Translations under genes and position numbers: made by a program
In this document: positions 15,148-25,413 of the stretch, one piece after another
Layout of the letters: the number at the start of each line of letters is the position of its first letter
How positions within the stretch are numbered: the first letter of the stretch is position 1
Notes under the pieces: model-generated
Told to the model about the DNA's origin: nothing
The model's input: only the letters and a program-made list of their open reading frames with translations
The model's database searches: none
NCBI GenBank assembly: GCA_028687585.1
Contig: JAQTZV010000008.1
Location: forward strand, 62,001 to 126,000
DNA from: Desulfuromonadaceae bacterium
Lineage (GTDB): Bacteria; Desulfobacterota; Desulfuromonadia; Geobacterales; Pseudopelobacteraceae
Length of the DNA: 64,000 bases
Direction of reading: 5' to 3'

Positions 15148-15861
15148 GTGTTTCAATATTATGACAAAACCATTCGGGGAACTGAAAAGGAAGATGCGCT
15201 CGTTATTCTGCAGTTTCTGAAAGGGATGATCGGGCAGAAATTTTCTTTTTTAAATTATTTCAGAGAGGTTCCCGTATCATACGATGCCGTTTTATTGAAT
15301 GTTGAAAATGAGATGGCGGAATTTTCTGTTCATGAATATCAGGCAAAAGTAATAAATCTGGAAAAAATGACGCTCATCCATTCGCACCCACGGAGTACTT
15401 TTACTGAGGATATGATTGGTGAGGCTTTTTATGTCAGCTCTGCAAAAAAGCGCGTTATTTTATGTAATTTTGGATATACTCGAATCCGTTCAGTCACGAG
15501 GAAGTTTGTACGTGTTCTTCTTGAATGTCCCGTTGAAGTTGAAATGATTTTTGAAGGAGATATTTTAAAAGGCAATGTAAAAGACATTTCGCTTGGAGGT
15601 GCCGCTTTACACACCATGTCAGCAGACCTTTTAACACCGGGACTTGATGTAAATATGTTTTTGAAACTGCCGGATGCCAGCGGGAAACCGATTCTGGAAG
15701 TTGGCATCACTGCGACGATTATTAACGTAATCGGAACGAGTGCTCCTTTTACCTGTTTAATTGAGTTCCATACGGAAAAACATTCACAGCAGCAGATTGC
15801 ATATTATATCAACCAGCGTCAGGTTGAGATAATCAAGGAGCTGAAGGATATATTTTTGTGA
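15148..15861 (+). CDS. PilZ-domain c-di-GMP-binding protein
   Basis: About 237 aa. The C-terminal half has the two c-di-GMP motifs of PilZ: RKFVR (RxxxR) and DISLGGAAL (D/NxSxxG), followed by the beta-barrel strands. The N-terminal half (residues 1-110) resembles the YcgR-N type but is not clearly assigned. GTG 15148 follows GAGGGG at suitable spacing; TTG 15145 is an alternative. It is a likely effector for diguanylate cyclases such as the one at 21.8 kb. Confidence 0.85.
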   Translation: MFQYYDKTIRGTEKEDALVILQFLKGMIGQKFSFLNYFREVPVSYDAVLLNVENEMAEFSVHEYQAKVINLEKMTLIHSHPRSTFTEDMIGEAFYVSSAKKRVILCNFGYTRIRSVTRKFVRVLLECPVEVEMIFEGDILKGNVKDISLGGAALHTMSADLLTPGLDVNMFLKLPDASGKPILEVGITATIINVIGTSAPFTCLIEFHTEKHSQQQIAYYINQRQVEIIKELKDIFL

Positions 15862-18014: not shown

Positions 18015-18866
18015 TTAATTTATCACCATTACTTGCGGGGCCAGAATCTGCTTTAATTTAGACAAAGCCCGCTCTTCAATCTGCCGTATCCGTTCACGAG
18101 ATATCTGAAAATGATCCGCTATGTCCTGAAGTGTCAACGGCTCATCGCTTGTCACCCGATGCTCAATTATAAAACGCTCCTTCTCGTTTAATCCTTCCAA
18201 AGCTCTTTTTACGTGGAGTTTCAGTTCATGCTCCTGCTGATATGTATCCAGCAGCTCCTCCTGATTCATTCGATCATCTGCGATGGTTTCAAGAACCGTT
18301 ACGTTGTCGCTCTCGCCAATATAGCTATCAAGTGAAACTTCTCCTTTCATGCGCTGTTCCATATCAGTCACATCCTGATCAGAGACCTGAAGCATATGAG
18401 CAGTTCCGGCGATGTTCGGTTCATGCCCCGTCAACTGAAAGAGCTTTTCCTTTGCTTTGCGCAACCCATAGAACAGTTTCCGCTGTGCTTGGGTCGTTCC
18501 AATTTTCACAAGACTCCATGCGGAAAGAATGTAATTCTGGATATAGGCCCGAATCCACCATACGGCATATGAGATAAGGCGCACGCCCTTGTATGGGTTG
18601 AACTTCCGTACCGCAATCATCAGTCCGATGTTTCCCTCCTGAATCAGATCAAGCATCTTGAGACCATAATGACGATATTCTGATGCAACCTTGACAACAT
18701 ATCGAAGATTGGAAGTGATCAGCGTATGCGCCGATTCCAGACTCTTTTCCTCAAACAACCTCTCGGCATGGAAACGTTCTTCATCTTCATTCAGAATTTT
18801 GAATTGTCTGATTTCAGCCAAATACAGCGTCAGGCTGTCAGCTAAAACCGGGTAATTAGCGACCAT
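18015..18866 (-). CDS. rpoH: Heat-shock sigma factor RpoH (sigma-32)
   Basis: A 283-aa group 3 sigma factor. Region 2 has LITSNLRYVVKVASEYRHYG, DLIQEGNIGLMIAVRKFNP and YAVWWIRAYIQNYIL. The sigma-32-specific RpoH box is present as AQRKLFYGLRKAKEKL. Region 4 ends with LTLQDIADHFQISRERIRQIEERAL. It is divergent from three small heat-shock protein genes, which it probably controls. An AGGAGG precedes the start. Confidence 0.95.
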   Translation of the reverse strand: MVANYPVLADSLTLYLAEIRQFKILNEDEERFHAERLFEEKSLESAHTLITSNLRYVVKVASEYRHYGLKMLDLIQEGNIGLMIAVRKFNPYKGVRLISYAVWWIRAYIQNYILSAWSLVKIGTTQAQRKLFYGLRKAKEKLFQLTGHEPNIAGTAHMLQVSDQDVTDMEQRMKGEVSLDSYIGESDNVTVLETIADDRMNQEELLDTYQQEHELKLHVKRALEGLNEKERFIIEHRVTSDEPLTLQDIADHFQISRERIRQIEERALSKLKQILAPQVMVIN

Positions 18867-19084: not shown

Positions 19085-19534
19085 ATGGCAACCTGGGATG
19101 TTTTCAAAGAGCTGGACACGTTAAGACGGGAGATCGATGAAGCGGTTCGTGGCGCAGGTTACAATCGACAATTTGGTCCGACATTCCTTTCGCCGGTAAC
19201 AACCCGTCGTTTTCCAATGGTCAACTTCAGTGAAGATGAAGGGCATGTATACATCGAGGCACTGGTTCCCGGCGTAGATCCAAAAGATGTCGAACTTTCT
19301 GTGCTGCGGAACACTGTCACCGTCAGTGGTGAGCGTAAGCCGTTTGTCGAAAAAGAAGGGCAGATTGTGCATCGCTCTGAACTCGGTTCCGGCAAATTTT
19401 CCCGGACTCTGGAACTGCCGGTTGATATCGATCCTGAAAAAATTTCTGCCCAGTGCAAAGACGGTATCATGCAGATCACCCTGGCCAAGGCAGAACATGC
19501 CAAGCCGAAGAAAATTGAAATCAAGCTTTCGTAA
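19085..19534 (+). CDS. Hsp20/alpha-crystallin small heat-shock protein
   Basis: A 149-aa ATP-independent holdase. The alpha-crystallin domain runs from FPMVNFSEDEGHVYIEALVPG to the hallmark KDGIMQITLAKAE (A-x-x-x-n-G-v-L-type motif), with the oligomerising I-x-I replaced by IEIKLS at the end. It is preceded by a perfect GAAAGGAGGTAATT Shine-Dalgarno. First of three adjacent hsp20 genes divergent from rpoH. Confidence 0.9.
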   Translation: MATWDVFKELDTLRREIDEAVRGAGYNRQFGPTFLSPVTTRRFPMVNFSEDEGHVYIEALVPGVDPKDVELSVLRNTVTVSGERKPFVEKEGQIVHRSELGSGKFSRTLELPVDIDPEKISAQCKDGIMQITLAKAEHAKPKKIEIKLS

Positions 19535-19567: not shown

Positions 19568-19966
19568 ATGGCAGCAAACAGCTTGACGGAAAGAAATGAT
19601 GAACGGAATGTCCAGGCACGTGAAGAGACACGGTCGAACGAAAAATATATCCGCCCGGCGGTGAATATCATAGAGACCGAAGAAGGTCTTGTCCTTACCG
19701 CTGACATTCCCGGTGCATCTAAAGAGGCTCTCGATGTTAACGTCGAAAAAGGCATTCTGACCATCAACGCACCGGCACAGCACAGCATGTCGGGAACCTC
19801 TGCCTATCGTGAATTCGAACTTGCCAGTTACTACCGTCAGTTCACGATTCCGGAAAGTCTCGATCACGAAAAGGCAAAAGCAGAGTATGTTAACGGTATT
19901 CTGACTCTGCGGGTGCCCAAGGCGGAAGTTGCAAAACCGAAACGGATCTCCGTACAGGTTGGTTAA
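19568..19966 (+). CDS. Hsp20/alpha-crystallin small heat-shock protein
   Basis: A 132-aa small heat-shock protein. It includes IRPAVNIIETEEGLVLTADIPG, YREFELASYYRQFTIPESLD and the signature AEYVNGILTLRVPKAE, ending in ISVQVG. The same 14-nt GAAAGGAGGTAATT leader as the gene before it precedes its ATG, suggesting tandem duplication including the translation signal. Spacing to the previous gene is 33 bp. Confidence 0.9.
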   Translation: MAANSLTERNDERNVQAREETRSNEKYIRPAVNIIETEEGLVLTADIPGASKEALDVNVEKGILTINAPAQHSMSGTSAYREFELASYYRQFTIPESLDHEKAKAEYVNGILTLRVPKAEVAKPKRISVQVG

Positions 19967-19976
19967 GGAAAAGTGG

Positions 19977-20441
19977 GTGAAGTTGCCTGAAAAATGGAAC
20001 GAGGCGCTGGAGAGGGTTCACGACAAAGTCGGCCATTTCCTGAACAGGCTGGTGACATGGAAGAAACAGGAACAGTCACCGGAAAGGACCCTTTCAGAAT
20101 TCATGAAGCTTGGTAGCCCCCAGCTGGACATGCATGAGGCGTCTGATGAACTGATTGTCAGGGCCGAAGTACCTGGACTTAATAAAGATGACTTTTCAGT
20201 CATGCTTGTCGGCAGGCGGTTAACAATACATGGTGAAATGAAAGTCGTACGAGAACAGAAAGGAGGTGATGGGTGCCTTATTTCAGAATGCAGGTACGGC
20301 AGTTTTTTCCGCACTGTCCAGTTGCCGTACGATATAGATGAGAAGTTGATTACGGCGGAGCTCAAACACGGGGTCCTCACCACCCGGCTCCCCAAGCCGG
20401 AAAAGGAACAGCATACCCGCTATCGTGTACCTGTCTCCTGA
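19977..20441 (+). CDS. Divergent Hsp20-family protein
   Basis: About 154 aa. A basic/amphipathic N-terminus (VKLPEKWNEALERVHDKVGH) leads into a divergent alpha-crystallin domain: PQLDMHEASDELIVRAEVPGL, YGSFFRTVQLPYDID and AELKHGVLTTRLPKPE. GTG 19977 is chosen because an AAGGAA lies just upstream, immediately after the previous stop; the frame is open further back to 19929 but would overlap the second hsp20 gene. It ends at a strong terminator, closing the hsp20 operon. Confidence 0.8.
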   Translation: MKLPEKWNEALERVHDKVGHFLNRLVTWKKQEQSPERTLSEFMKLGSPQLDMHEASDELIVRAEVPGLNKDDFSVMLVGRRLTIHGEMKVVREQKGGDGCLISECRYGSFFRTVQLPYDIDEKLITAELKHGVLTTRLPKPEKEQHTRYRVPVS

Positions 20442-20481: not shown

Positions 20482-20681
20482 ACTATTTTGAGCATAGGAC
20501 ACCATTGCTAAACGTATGGCTCGCCTTGACGACTATCAGTTCGGTCAACCAATAAAGCTTTACATTCTGGCCAGTTCAGTGTTAGCCATTAAGGTAAGGC
20601 GGTCTGAGTATTTGATTTTTGACCGGGAGGATCTTCCGTGCAGAGACGTTTAACTGTTATTACCCTATAAAAAGCAGTAAT
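20482..20681. other. Gene-poor gap with one 45-codon open frame
   Basis: No recognised gene. An open frame from ATG 20516 to TAA 20653 encodes 45 residues with SSVLAIKVRRSEYLIFD. It has no ribosome binding site and no recognised family, so it may be a remnant. The palindromic CACGAA element begins at 20682. Confidence 0.2.
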
Positions 20682-20807
20682 CCACGAAAAGCACGAAATA
20701 CACGAACGAAATCAGAAAGACAAACAACTTCACGACGTAACCTGCTTGGTGAATCACTGTTTTACTGTAATGCTTTAATTTTTCGTGTTTTATCGTGCTT
20801 TTCGTGG
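20682..20807. repeat. Gene-free CACGAA palindromic element (MITE-like)
   Basis: The left end (20682-20706) is CCACGAAAAGCACGAAATAC followed by ACGAA. The right end (20782-20807) is its inverted copy with one extra base. Between them are about 75 nt without a gene. Similar CACGAA-type termini flank the two GxxExxY genes at 51.4-52.0 and 53.7-54.2 kb. The sequence just inside the left end (GAAATCAGAAAGA) also resembles that at 51441 (GAAAATCTGAAAGA). It looks like a gene-less member of the same family. Confidence 0.7.
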
Positions 20808-20830
20808 ACTCAAAAGCCGTTTTTAGGATT

Positions 20831-21053
20831 ACTGTTCCAACGGCAACGGTCTGATGGCTTACGGACGGGAGGTTGCCGCCCGAACCGAGCAACAGTGGCG
20901 CCCTATCAAGCATGTGCGCCGGATCAAGGCTGCCACGAGCGCTATCCCCGGTTCTTAGAATATGGCGAGGCTGAAAGTTGGCAGAAAGGGCTGGAAAGAT
21001 TGAGGCGGAAATATCCGAAAGAGGATTTCAGCGTAAACAAAGAGGGAAACTGA
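20831..21053 (+). pseudogene. Frameshifted remnant of an unrecognised gene, 5' end lost
   Basis: One frame reads CSNGNGLMAYGREVAARTEQ and WRPIKHVRRIKAA. After a one-base shift near 20936 another frame continues HERYPRFLEYGEAESWQ and LERLRRKYPKEDF to a stop at 21053. The two segments read as one protein broken by a frameshift. The 5' end is absent and the palindromic element sits immediately upstream. The stop is two bases before the thioredoxin start, with GAGGGAAAC between reading as its ribosome binding site. The family is not recognised. Confidence 0.45.
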
Positions 21054-21054
21054 C

Positions 21055-21498
21055 ATGAATGCTGTAAGCTACATCGTGAAATGCCCATTATGCGGCACCG
21101 GCAACCGTATCCCGGCAGATAAAGAAGGGCTCAAGGGACATTGCGGCAGTTGCAAGGCAGTCCTGCCGCCAATGTACTGTCATGCTCAGCAGATGACCGA
21201 CCGAACCTTCGACTCATTCATAAACTCCTATCCAGGCCCGGTTTTGGCGGAATTTTGGGCTCCTACTTGACCGCATTGCCATACGTTCGCACCGGTGGTG
21301 CGAACTCTTGCAGAAAAACTGGCCGGACAGGCGGCAGTATTACAGATCAATACCCAGGACAGCTCAAATCTGGCAACTCGCTTCGGAATCCGTGGTATCC
21401 CGGCAATAGTACTGTTGAAGCAGGGACGAGTTATAGATCAACTTCCGGGAGCTCAAGCGCTTGATGCTGTTATAGCGTGGTTCCGCCGGAAAGCATAA
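21055..21498 (+). CDS. Thioredoxin (TrxC-like) with in-frame UGA at the active site: probable selenoprotein
   Basis: Reads as one frame of 147 residues if TGA 21268-21270 (codon 72) is translated. The N-terminal CPLCGTGNRIP and CGSC form the zinc finger of TrxC-type thioredoxins. The thioredoxin fold follows: VLAEFWAPT, then UGA, then PHCHTFAPVVRTLAEKLAG, INTQDSSNLATRFGIRGIPA (cis-Pro) and VLLKQGRVIDQLPGA. The UGA falls exactly where the first Cys of the usual WCGPC stands, giving U-P-H-C with the resolving Cys kept. A hairpin of the bacterial SECIS type begins 14 nt after the UGA. The alternative is a nonsense mutation, but the position, the intact downstream frame and the hairpin all favour selenocysteine. 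Confidence 0.8.
21285..21305 (+). promoter_or_regulatory. Bacterial SECIS-like hairpin in the thioredoxin mRNA
   Basis: GTTCGCACC (21285-21293) pairs perfectly with GGTGCGAAC (21297-21305) around a GGU loop. The loop G lies 24 nt after the UGA, close to the spacing of the SelB-binding loop in known bacterial SECIS elements such as E. coli fdhF. The hairpin lies in the coding frame. Confidence 0.7.
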
Positions 21499-23034: not shown

Positions 23035-25413
23035 ATGCTTCAGGTTAATACGACAGACCGTTTATTATTCAATTTGTGCATACTGCTGCTCCTCATTCTC
23101 TTCACCGGCTGCGCCGGGAAAGCGCTCCCTCCGGTAACAGTTAAAATCCCGACCCGGACCATCGATTACCAGAAAGAGGTAAAACCGCTGCTGGATAAGC
23201 GCTGCACAGTCTGTCACTCCTGCTACAACTCTCCCTGTCAGCTCAAGCTGGACTCATTTGAGGGGATCGACCGGGGGGCGACGAAACGCGCGATTTATAA
23301 CGCCGGGCGGTTGACAACCATGGAGCCGACCCGGTTGTTTACCGATGCCCAGACCACACAGGAGTGGCGCAAAAAGCAGTTCTTCAGCGTTACCGAGAGC
23401 AGTGTCGGTGACGGCTTGAACAACTCGCTGATGATCCAGCTGCTCTCCCATAAGATGAAAAACCAGAAGAGTACCGGCGAGTACAAGCCTGAAGCGGATG
23501 ACCTGACCTGTGCCGAAAATCGCGAAGAGTTGGGGGGATATCTGGAAAAGCACCCCAACAACGGTATGCCGTTCGGGTTTCCACCGCTGAAGCAGGACGA
23601 GTTCGAGACAGTCGCCGGGTGGCTCGTTCAGGGCGCCAAAGGACCTGATGCCGCCCAGCAGGAACTGCTCACGACACCGAAGCCGGCGGATGCCCTGGCC
23701 ATCGGAGAGTGGGAAGACTTTTTCAACCGCAACGATGCCAAGCACGCCATGACGGCGCGCTATATTTACGAACATCTCTTCCTTGCACATCTGAAATTCG
23801 GCACACCGACGGGCGAATTCTATGAACTGGTGCGCTCCACAACTCCGCCGGGCCAACCGATCAATCTGATCGCTTCTGTCCGTCCCTATGACGATCCGGG
23901 TGTGGCACAGGTGTACTACCGTTTCAGGAAAATCCACTCCACTATCGTCCAGAAGACCCATATGGTATTCGATCTTGATGATAGGCAACTCAAGCGATTT
24001 GACGAGCTGTTCATTCAGCCTGAATGGCTGCAGCCGCCGCACCTGATGGGGTATGACCCGAAACTGAGCTCCCGTCCGTTTGCTGTGTTCGAACAGATCC
24101 CTCCCCGTTCGCGCTACCAGTTTCTGCTCGACAATGCCCGCTACTCGATTATGACATTCATTCATGGTCCGGTCTGCAAGGGGCAGATCGCCCTCAACGT
24201 GATTGATGATCACTTCTGGGTGATGTTCATGGATCCCGATCACGATCTGAGTGTGCAATACCCGGCGTTTCTGAAGCTGCACGCTGACAAGCTTACCATG
24301 CCAATAGAGAGCGGCAGCGACCTGGGGCTGTTCTCGGCGCTTACCGACAAGCATCGTAACGCGGCGGTGGAGTTTTACAAAGCCCGGCAGGATTACTACA
24401 TGTCGCACAATTACACCGGCCTCGGAATTGACTCAATCTGGGCGGGAAGTCGACCCGGCGATGAACCGCTGCTCACCATTTATCGCCATTTCGACAGCGC
24501 ATCGGTGCATAAGGGAGCGCTCGGGAATCTGCCCAAAACTCTCTGGGTCCTCGATTATCCCCTGTTGGAGCGGATCTATTATGCCCTTGTTGCCGGATTT
24601 GACATTTACGGCACCGCCGGTCATCAACTGGCGGTTCGGCTGTATATGGACGAACTGCGTGTCGAAGGGGAGAGCTATTTCCTCGATTTTCTTCCTCCGG
24701 CTAAACGACAGGAGATCATGCAGTCGTGGTATATCGGCGAGAAACTGGAGAATATGCATTACTACCCGTCTGCTCTGCCGGCCCGGATCTCGTTCGTCAC
24801 CGCTGACCCCAAGCGCGAGTTTGTCGAACAAGTGGTGGACCGGCATCTGCTCCCGGCCAGTGGCATAAAGTTCGATCCGCTCAACTATCTACGGGCTGGT
24901 GAACAGTACCCTGTCATGCCAAAAGGATACAAAAGTGTGGATGACTATATAGGGGCATTCCGGGCTCTTTCTCAGCCTGGCACTCCGTTCGCCAGAGTCA
25001 TCAATGGTAACAACTCCAACCTTGCCTACCTGAGGATCCGCCTGAAGAACGGCACTAATGTGATCAGCAGTATGGTGGTCAACCGATGGCATGACAATGT
25101 GTCTTTCCTGATCAAGGAAGATGCCCATCTCGATGCGACAAAGGACAGTGTTGATTTTGTCGCTGGGCTGATAGGCTCATACCCGAATTATTTCTTTGAT
25201 GTCCAAGAAGAAGATCTGCCTGATTTTATCGACCTGCTGGCCCATTATGAAGATACCCCGAAGGAACTTGCGCGGTTGGCAAAATACGGGATAAACCGGG
25301 CGGACGACCGCTTCTGGGAAACCTACGACTGGTTTCAGCAGCGCTTCAACAAGGATGAGCCGGTGCGTGGAGGGCTTTTTGATTTAAACCGCTACTACTA
25401 CAGGGCCCTTTGA
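23035..25413 (+). CDS. cti: Fatty acid cis/trans isomerase with heme c motif
   Basis: A 792-aa periplasmic enzyme that converts cis unsaturated phospholipid acyl chains to trans, stiffening the membrane under solvent or heat stress. The N-terminus is a lipoprotein-like signal (LLLLILFTGC). A c-type heme motif CTVCH follows near residue 60, as in Pseudomonas Cti. The rest covers the family, including HFHxD-like and ARISFVTADPKREFVEQVVDRH blocks. It is longer than strictly needed but normal for the family. A long minus-strand open frame inside it is a codon-bias shadow. Confidence 0.9.
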   Translation: MLQVNTTDRLLFNLCILLLLILFTGCAGKALPPVTVKIPTRTIDYQKEVKPLLDKRCTVCHSCYNSPCQLKLDSFEGIDRGATKRAIYNAGRLTTMEPTRLFTDAQTTQEWRKKQFFSVTESSVGDGLNNSLMIQLLSHKMKNQKSTGEYKPEADDLTCAENREELGGYLEKHPNNGMPFGFPPLKQDEFETVAGWLVQGAKGPDAAQQELLTTPKPADALAIGEWEDFFNRNDAKHAMTARYIYEHLFLAHLKFGTPTGEFYELVRSTTPPGQPINLIASVRPYDDPGVAQVYYRFRKIHSTIVQKTHMVFDLDDRQLKRFDELFIQPEWLQPPHLMGYDPKLSSRPFAVFEQIPPRSRYQFLLDNARYSIMTFIHGPVCKGQIALNVIDDHFWVMFMDPDHDLSVQYPAFLKLHADKLTMPIESGSDLGLFSALTDKHRNAAVEFYKARQDYYMSHNYTGLGIDSIWAGSRPGDEPLLTIYRHFDSASVHKGALGNLPKTLWVLDYPLLERIYYALVAGFDIYGTAGHQLAVRLYMDELRVEGESYFLDFLPPAKRQEIMQSWYIGEKLENMHYYPSALPARISFVTADPKREFVEQVVDRHLLPASGIKFDPLNYLRAGEQYPVMPKGYKSVDDYIGAFRALSQPGTPFARVINGNNSNLAYLRIRLKNGTNVISSMVVNRWHDNVSFLIKEDAHLDATKDSVDFVAGLIGSYPNYFFDVQEEDLPDFIDLLAHYEDTPKELARLAKYGINRADDRFWETYDWFQQRFNKDEPVRGGLFDLNRYYYRAL

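Follow-up and report, generated by a model that had tools for sequence, protein, structure and literature searches.

Thioredoxins that contain selenocysteine (Sec) are already known in Geobacter. They were listed for three species of this genus in 2006 (PMC1794560), GSU3446 of Geobacter sulfurreducens was described as a Sec-thioredoxin in 2007 (PMC1914089) and a 2026 review, which lists Sec-thioredoxin among its entries, regards the Sec form as adapted to high substrate concentrations (PMC13188914). The gene considered here, trxC, which lies in a 64,000-nt stretch of Desulfuromonadaceae DNA (the window), is almost certainly an additional Sec-thioredoxin gene. With the described bacterial family (GSU3446 and its counterparts in G. 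metallireducens and G. uraniumreducens) it shares a bacterial group and a UGA within the frame, at position one of UxxC, whereas the portions of those descriptions that we compared mention neither a zinc ribbon nor a U-P-H-C site nor a chaperone cluster, all of them seen in the window. GSU3446, compared here through its description, may well be an ortholog of the window gene.

Two other systems invite comparison. The first is thioredoxin 2 (TrxC), which likewise has a zinc ribbon ahead of its thioredoxin domain and is the best NCBIfam match of the window protein; the latter differs in scoring under the equivalog cut-off and in having Sec and P-H in its active site. The second is tLST, a horizontally moved cluster that resembles ours in combining a thioredoxin and a DegP-type protease with small heat-shock proteins, but has, in the parts of its description compared, ClpK, YfdX, HdeD and KefB where the window-type cluster has RpoH, DnaJ and CbpM (PMC8290217). 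The thioredoxin of the window-type cluster is moreover a predicted selenoprotein. As far as that description goes, tLST is a parallel and not the same group. Titles and abstract openings of the papers listed from the open-access literature yielded no Sec-thioredoxin tied to a chaperone cluster or island.

The gene, its product and its homologs

The window gene almost certainly encodes a selenocysteine thioredoxin of TrxC architecture, in which UGA is read as Sec (Table 1). A preliminary description made from the letters alone had proposed a single frame broken only by a TGA in the active site, and this is borne out: the sole interruption is codon 72, the first position of the site, in the context WAPT-U-PHC-HTFAPV. 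A typical thioredoxin active site is C-G-P-C, unlike U-P-H-C, and C-P-H-C is the motif of DsbA. Pfam Thioredoxin (PF00085) spans the UGA with 83.8 bits (9.7e-24) and, together with the zinc ribbon (PF21352), completes the pair of domains by which TrxC is recognised. Zinc-ribbon residues C30 and C33 are invariant in 32 homologs, and C10 and C13 nearly so. The proposal of a Sec-containing TrxC-type thioredoxin holds for the selenoprotein and for the architecture, not for the curated TrxC equivalog, whose model (NF008229) is the top NCBIfam match with 99.5 bits against a cut-off of 125. Purifying selection acts on both sides of the UGA, dN/dS between the window gene and 10 relatives lying at 0.05-0.13 upstream of it, with one saturated value, and at 0.07-0.25 downstream.

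Homologs were sought in 58 relatives and then in 244 genomes of the class. Of the 156 fetched loci, many of which were the same place twice, 90 were retained as diverging by more than 2% across 300 nt; three of these are Cys-TrxC outgroups and the other 87 are the family counted here. L117, which did not reach the site, was excluded, L165 (gap) was excluded from the codon test only, and L191, truncated by its contig, could not be assessed for redundancy. Codon 72 is TGA in 75 of the 87, TGC in 8, TGT in 4 and nothing else, that is, either UGA or Cys (12) and none of the random residues against which the preliminary description had warned. Isolates with a UGA copy include Geomobilimonas luticola, Geomesophilobacter sediminis, Geobacter sp. 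OR-1, Pelotalea chapellei, Oryzomonas japonica and Geomonas azotofigens. Among the 85 matches listed with E <1e-40 in the 244 class genomes, 74 have exactly one internal TGA and 11 are stop-free; two of the weaker matches, which are other thioredoxins, have TAG or TAA inside. Viral contigs gave one pattern match and no relative, and the 1304 matching plasmid records were all below 60% identity (31-38% among the 30 matches listed).

On a tree of 90 rows and 144 columns, computed with residue 72 masked and in which 22 of 87 inner branches are weak, the Sec/Cys state needs four changes. One falls between outgroup and family, its direction not being given by the tree, and the three within the family, at L033, at L156 and in a 10-row clade of the window's genus, are interpreted as replacements of Sec by Cys. 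A 3.5-kb contig titled Phycisphaera mikurensis (MAG) carries a UGA trxC that is 79% identical (L082) and is probably a mis-binned Geobacterales contig, and two trxC fragments with internal TAG and TAA (G003:C3:152755-152926) are a decayed extra copy.

Table 1. Features of the trxC locus, in coordinates of the window
Feature	Position	Strand	Evidence
RpoH-type sigma factor, cluster head	18015..18866	-	NCBIfam TIGR02392 rpoH_proteo 323.3 bits, cut-off 323.1; same position in relatives
Hsp20 A	19085..19534	+	Pfam HSP20 5.6e-22
Hsp20 B	19568..19966	+	Pfam HSP20 2.7e-18
Hsp20 C	19929..20441	+	Pfam HSP20 7e-19; true start probably further downstream
Broken remnant of the 203-aa gene lying before trxC in relatives	20591..21053	+	interrupted by other sequence
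Imperfect palindromic repeat within the 203-aa gene remnant	20685..20832		fold z -2.84
Sec-thioredoxin CDS, TrxC architecture	21055..21498	+	147 aa with U72; Thioredoxin and Zn_ribbon_Thio2 through UGA
N-terminal zinc ribbon, residues 10-35	21082..21159	+	Pfam PF21352 27.8 bits, cut-off 27.1
UGA predicted to be read as selenocysteine, U72 of U-P-H-C	21268..21270	+	homolog codons 75 UGA, 12 Cys (n=87)
Resolving Cys75 codon	21277..21279	+	invariant, 32 aligned homologs
SECIS hairpin, 9-bp stem, GGU loop 21294-21296	21285..21305	+	bSECIS limits, synonymous constraint, compensatory changes

Chaperone neighbourhood

One trxC clade, with the motif WAPT-U-PHC and including the window's gene, is linked to an RpoH-Hsp20-DnaJ-CbpM-HtrA cluster, a linkage that is new as far as the literature listings show. 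In its fuller neighbourhoods (L058, L059, L080, L081, L083, L085 and L199) the cluster consists of three Hsp20 genes, DnaJ, a CbpM-like MerR protein, HtrA and a 203-aa protein, with trxC last. An RpoH-type sigma factor, which was not found at L080 and L081, fronts these clusters on the opposite strand except in L083. Between sigma factor and trxC in L058, the surroundings of which were scanned in part, ORFs of at least 80 aa encode a transposase, three Hsp20, DnaJ, the CbpM-like protein, HtrA and the 203-aa protein. This last protein (L058:9189-9800) is conserved in relatives, carries the motif FNCFYCSYGNGL, lies directly before trxC and has no match in Pfam or NCBIfam. Because trxC closes the cluster in these fuller loci, repair of oxidised proteins under stress is its most likely role.

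In the window the cluster has a reduced form: it lacks DnaJ, CbpM and HtrA, and its 203-aa gene is broken, with the pieces at 20591-20637 and 20829-21060 matching the intact L058 gene at 87% and 83%. A stress role would therefore be weaker here than in the relatives. The palindromic repeat inside the remnant occurs once in the window and is absent from the three further stretches of the contig that were examined. Closely downstream of trxC, at 23035-25413, lies a gene for a fatty acid cis/trans isomerase (Pfam CTI, 3.1e-256), a membrane stress enzyme judging by its family name.

There is a sizeable, if less than even, chance that the link is a coincidence and that a housekeeping Sec-thioredoxin landed near Hsp20 genes in a few genomes. 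Cluster genes are absent from 49 of the 54 loci L152-L205 in the stretch covered (mostly ~6 kb upstream, at most 1.3 kb in three), and within the clade osmC-yeiH takes the place of the cluster upstream of L055, L056 and L061, while five further places are free of markers, some of them on short contigs. Such a coincidence sits badly, however, with the nine of the clade's 19 places where Hsp20 lies upstream on the trxC strand and trxC directly follows a complete or partial 203-aa gene, an arrangement found at one further place (G081) beyond the 19, and with L066 and L068, outside the clade, where trxC follows two Hsp20 genes. The remaining two clade places are L054, which has cluster fragments only, and L057, whose contig begins within the cluster.

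Probable movement between species

Judging from near-identical blocks in distant genomes, the cluster appears to have moved between species. The window (C12:62001-126000) belongs to a genome of 5.47 Mb in 60 contigs (G000) that has a second copy on contig C3, with a protein 86% identical and the UGA kept. This copy lies within a 37-kb block, which extends to the end of its contig and matches G003 at 99.99% identity; the glnA regions of the two genomes are 75% identical and glnA alone 80%. Similarly, G016 and G042, which belong to different families, have 16.7 kb in common at an identity of at least 99.9%; a 1.3-kb insert carrying a transposase gene divides this sequence in two. Another 13.8 kb match at 97.4%, against 78% identity in the glnA region. 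The shared blocks of both pairs hold the cluster or a reduced form of it.

At the block edges of C3/G003 and G042 stands a 160-residue piece of a ComM/YifB-type gene (Pfam Mg_chelatase and Mg_chelatase_C), after which an HTH gene begins. The same junction sequence precedes the clusters of G016 and G081, with an 18-residue comM-like stub only, and longer comM pieces occur at other junction copies ~4 and 10 kb away. This repeated junction, CAGGGGTGTGT plus the start of an HTH_3 gene, edges the interspecies blocks and recurs inside them beside comM fragments (L052/L226 on our own contig at C3:193212-230223, L053, L058, L059, L199, L217, L219 and L224). Modules near it include molybdopterin oxidoreductase, nitrate-reductase-beta-like and MFS genes in L224, and cytochrome c552 and a prismane protein in L217. 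Among the element genes scanned there was no integrase and no recombinase, bar one transposase in the L058 insert. The window copy, which sits just downstream of glnA, has no such junction inside the window (two mismatches or fewer allowed), and the sequence downstream of glnA in G016, G003 and G042 holds nothing similar to the window locus.

Plain mis-binning of the C3 copy from a G003-like organism is disfavoured by a comparison of C3:20000-26000. This region matches G003 only partly (68-85%) and has a repeat in common with other contigs of G000, C12 included (90-97% identity), which favours acquisition of the block by transfer; an assembly join at the block edge would be the alternative. 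A bolder and rather unlikely reading, which we put forward tentatively, is that the RpoH-Hsp20-DnaJ-CbpM-HtrA genes and the DsbA-like U-P-H-C Sec-thioredoxin form a selenium-dependent mobile stress cassette, spreading among Geobacterales-type bacteria within elements that insert at comM. Full function of such a cassette would depend on the host keeping Sec decoding, and its thioredoxin could revert to Cys.

Predicted decoding of the UGA

The sel genes, on which the preliminary description had made the Sec reading hinge, are all present. Three are on the window's contig, namely selB (637-aa ORF, TIGR00475 386 bits, cut-off 242), selA (552-aa ORF, TIGR00474 603.7 bits, cut-off 268) and selC at 15443-15536 (RF01852 69.3 bits, cut-off 47; tRNA-SeC with anticodon tca by ARAGORN), and selD is on contig C38 (TIGR00476 383 bits, cut-off 125). 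Across the window, Rfam found one tRNA and nothing else. SelA and tRNA-Sec were found together in 22 of the 25 UGA-carrying genomes, in 9 of the 11 that have Cys copies only and in 17 of the 22 that lack this gene; as these 58 genomes reveal no clear association between UGA copy and machinery, this tally is left out as evidence. G024 (96% complete) and G033 (92%), whose UGA copies are loci L054 and L061, have no match to SelA or tRNA-Sec, and G025 (66%) has none to SelA, the explanation being either incomplete assemblies or selenoprotein genes stranded in non-decoding hosts. G009 and G020 have two above-cut-off tRNA-Sec matches each.

The hairpin is as first described: a 9-bp stem (21285-21293 with 21297-21305) starts after 14 nt from the UGA, and the loop G at 21294 is 24 nt past the last UGA base. 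The bacterial SECIS model, in the portion of the source compared, has a loop of 3-9 nt, a stem of 4-16 bp, an MFE of -7.5 or below, a G in the first two loop positions and a UGA-loop distance of 16-37 nt (PMC13188914). By that account the window hairpin lies within all five limits (loop 3 nt, stem 9 bp, loop start GG, spacing 23 nt, MFE -14.9). The -14.9 kcal/mol of the 43-nt stretch has a z of -2.36 and is equalled or bettered by 4 of 200 dinucleotide shuffles, and 1 of 2000 shuffles preserving protein and codon use folds as well as the native hairpin.

The homologs tell the same story, the hairpin being kept in those with UGA and lost in most of those with Cys. The preliminary description had named a lack of hairpin conservation in close relatives as a refutation, and this is not what is seen. 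An MFE of -7.5 or below is reached by 75/75 UGA homologs versus 2/12 Cys homologs, the two being L033 and L156, single Cys tips amid UGA rows of the tree, in which the hairpin is intact, while the ten-species Cys clade has a worn one. The loop of the 75 UGA genes reads GGC (39), GGT (31), GTC (4) or GGG (1), and all eight tested stem pairs are kept in 68, seven in 6 and six in 1. Normalised synonymous entropy in these genes is 0.139 over the six hairpin codons versus 0.787 over 91 codons elsewhere, lower than in any of 20000 random draws, and two codons, CCG and GTG, are frozen (74/74 each); in Cys genes it is 0.75 in the hairpin codons versus 0.642 elsewhere. One stem pair has changed from C-G to T-A on both sides in five UGA genes (L106, L183, L184, L186 and L189), each with Arg83 replaced by Gln, which sit in three parts of the tree (L189, a long branch, is of unsure placement). 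The entropy contrast between UGA and Cys genes and these two-sided changes show that the RNA structure is under selection, and solely in genes that have the UGA. A chance hairpin is ruled out by the synonymous shuffles and the UGA/Cys contrast.

That the TGA is instead a true stop, the gene being a thioredoxin pseudogene with a nonsense mutation or the product of a sequencing error, has a negligible probability. The broken 203-aa gene next door does suggest a locus in partial decay, but a stop is at odds with the sharing of this UGA by 75 of 87 homologs, named isolates among them, with selection on both sides of it and with a frame free of any further stop; UGA conservation, selection and the hairpin rule it out. 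Decoding of the UGA as another residue (by suppressor tRNA, frameshift or general readthrough) next to an incidental hairpin is just as improbable, given that Cys codons are the sole replacements of UGA, the Sec machinery is complete and the hairpin constraint is limited to UGA genes.

Proposed mechanism and implications

With UGA 21268 read as Sec, the ribosome would insert this residue there rather than terminate, the hairpin 14 nt downstream would bind SelB, which would deliver Sec-tRNA(Sec), and the latter would be charged by SelA with selenium supplied via SelD. Sec72 and Cys75 of U-P-H-C would then carry out thiol-disulfide exchange in what is presumably a cytoplasmic redox protein induced by stress, and the Sec-thioredoxin would most likely reduce or repair oxidised proteins under stress.

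A standard gene caller would split or omit trxC, and the annotation would then lack a working redox enzyme. The trxC family also offers a clean natural experiment on Sec/Cys exchange, in which the hairpin constrains codons only while the UGA is present. Should the link with the chaperone genes prove functional, the supply of selenium would matter for a mobile module of stress tolerance in these bacteria. The genomic context of this Sec-thioredoxin merits a functional test.
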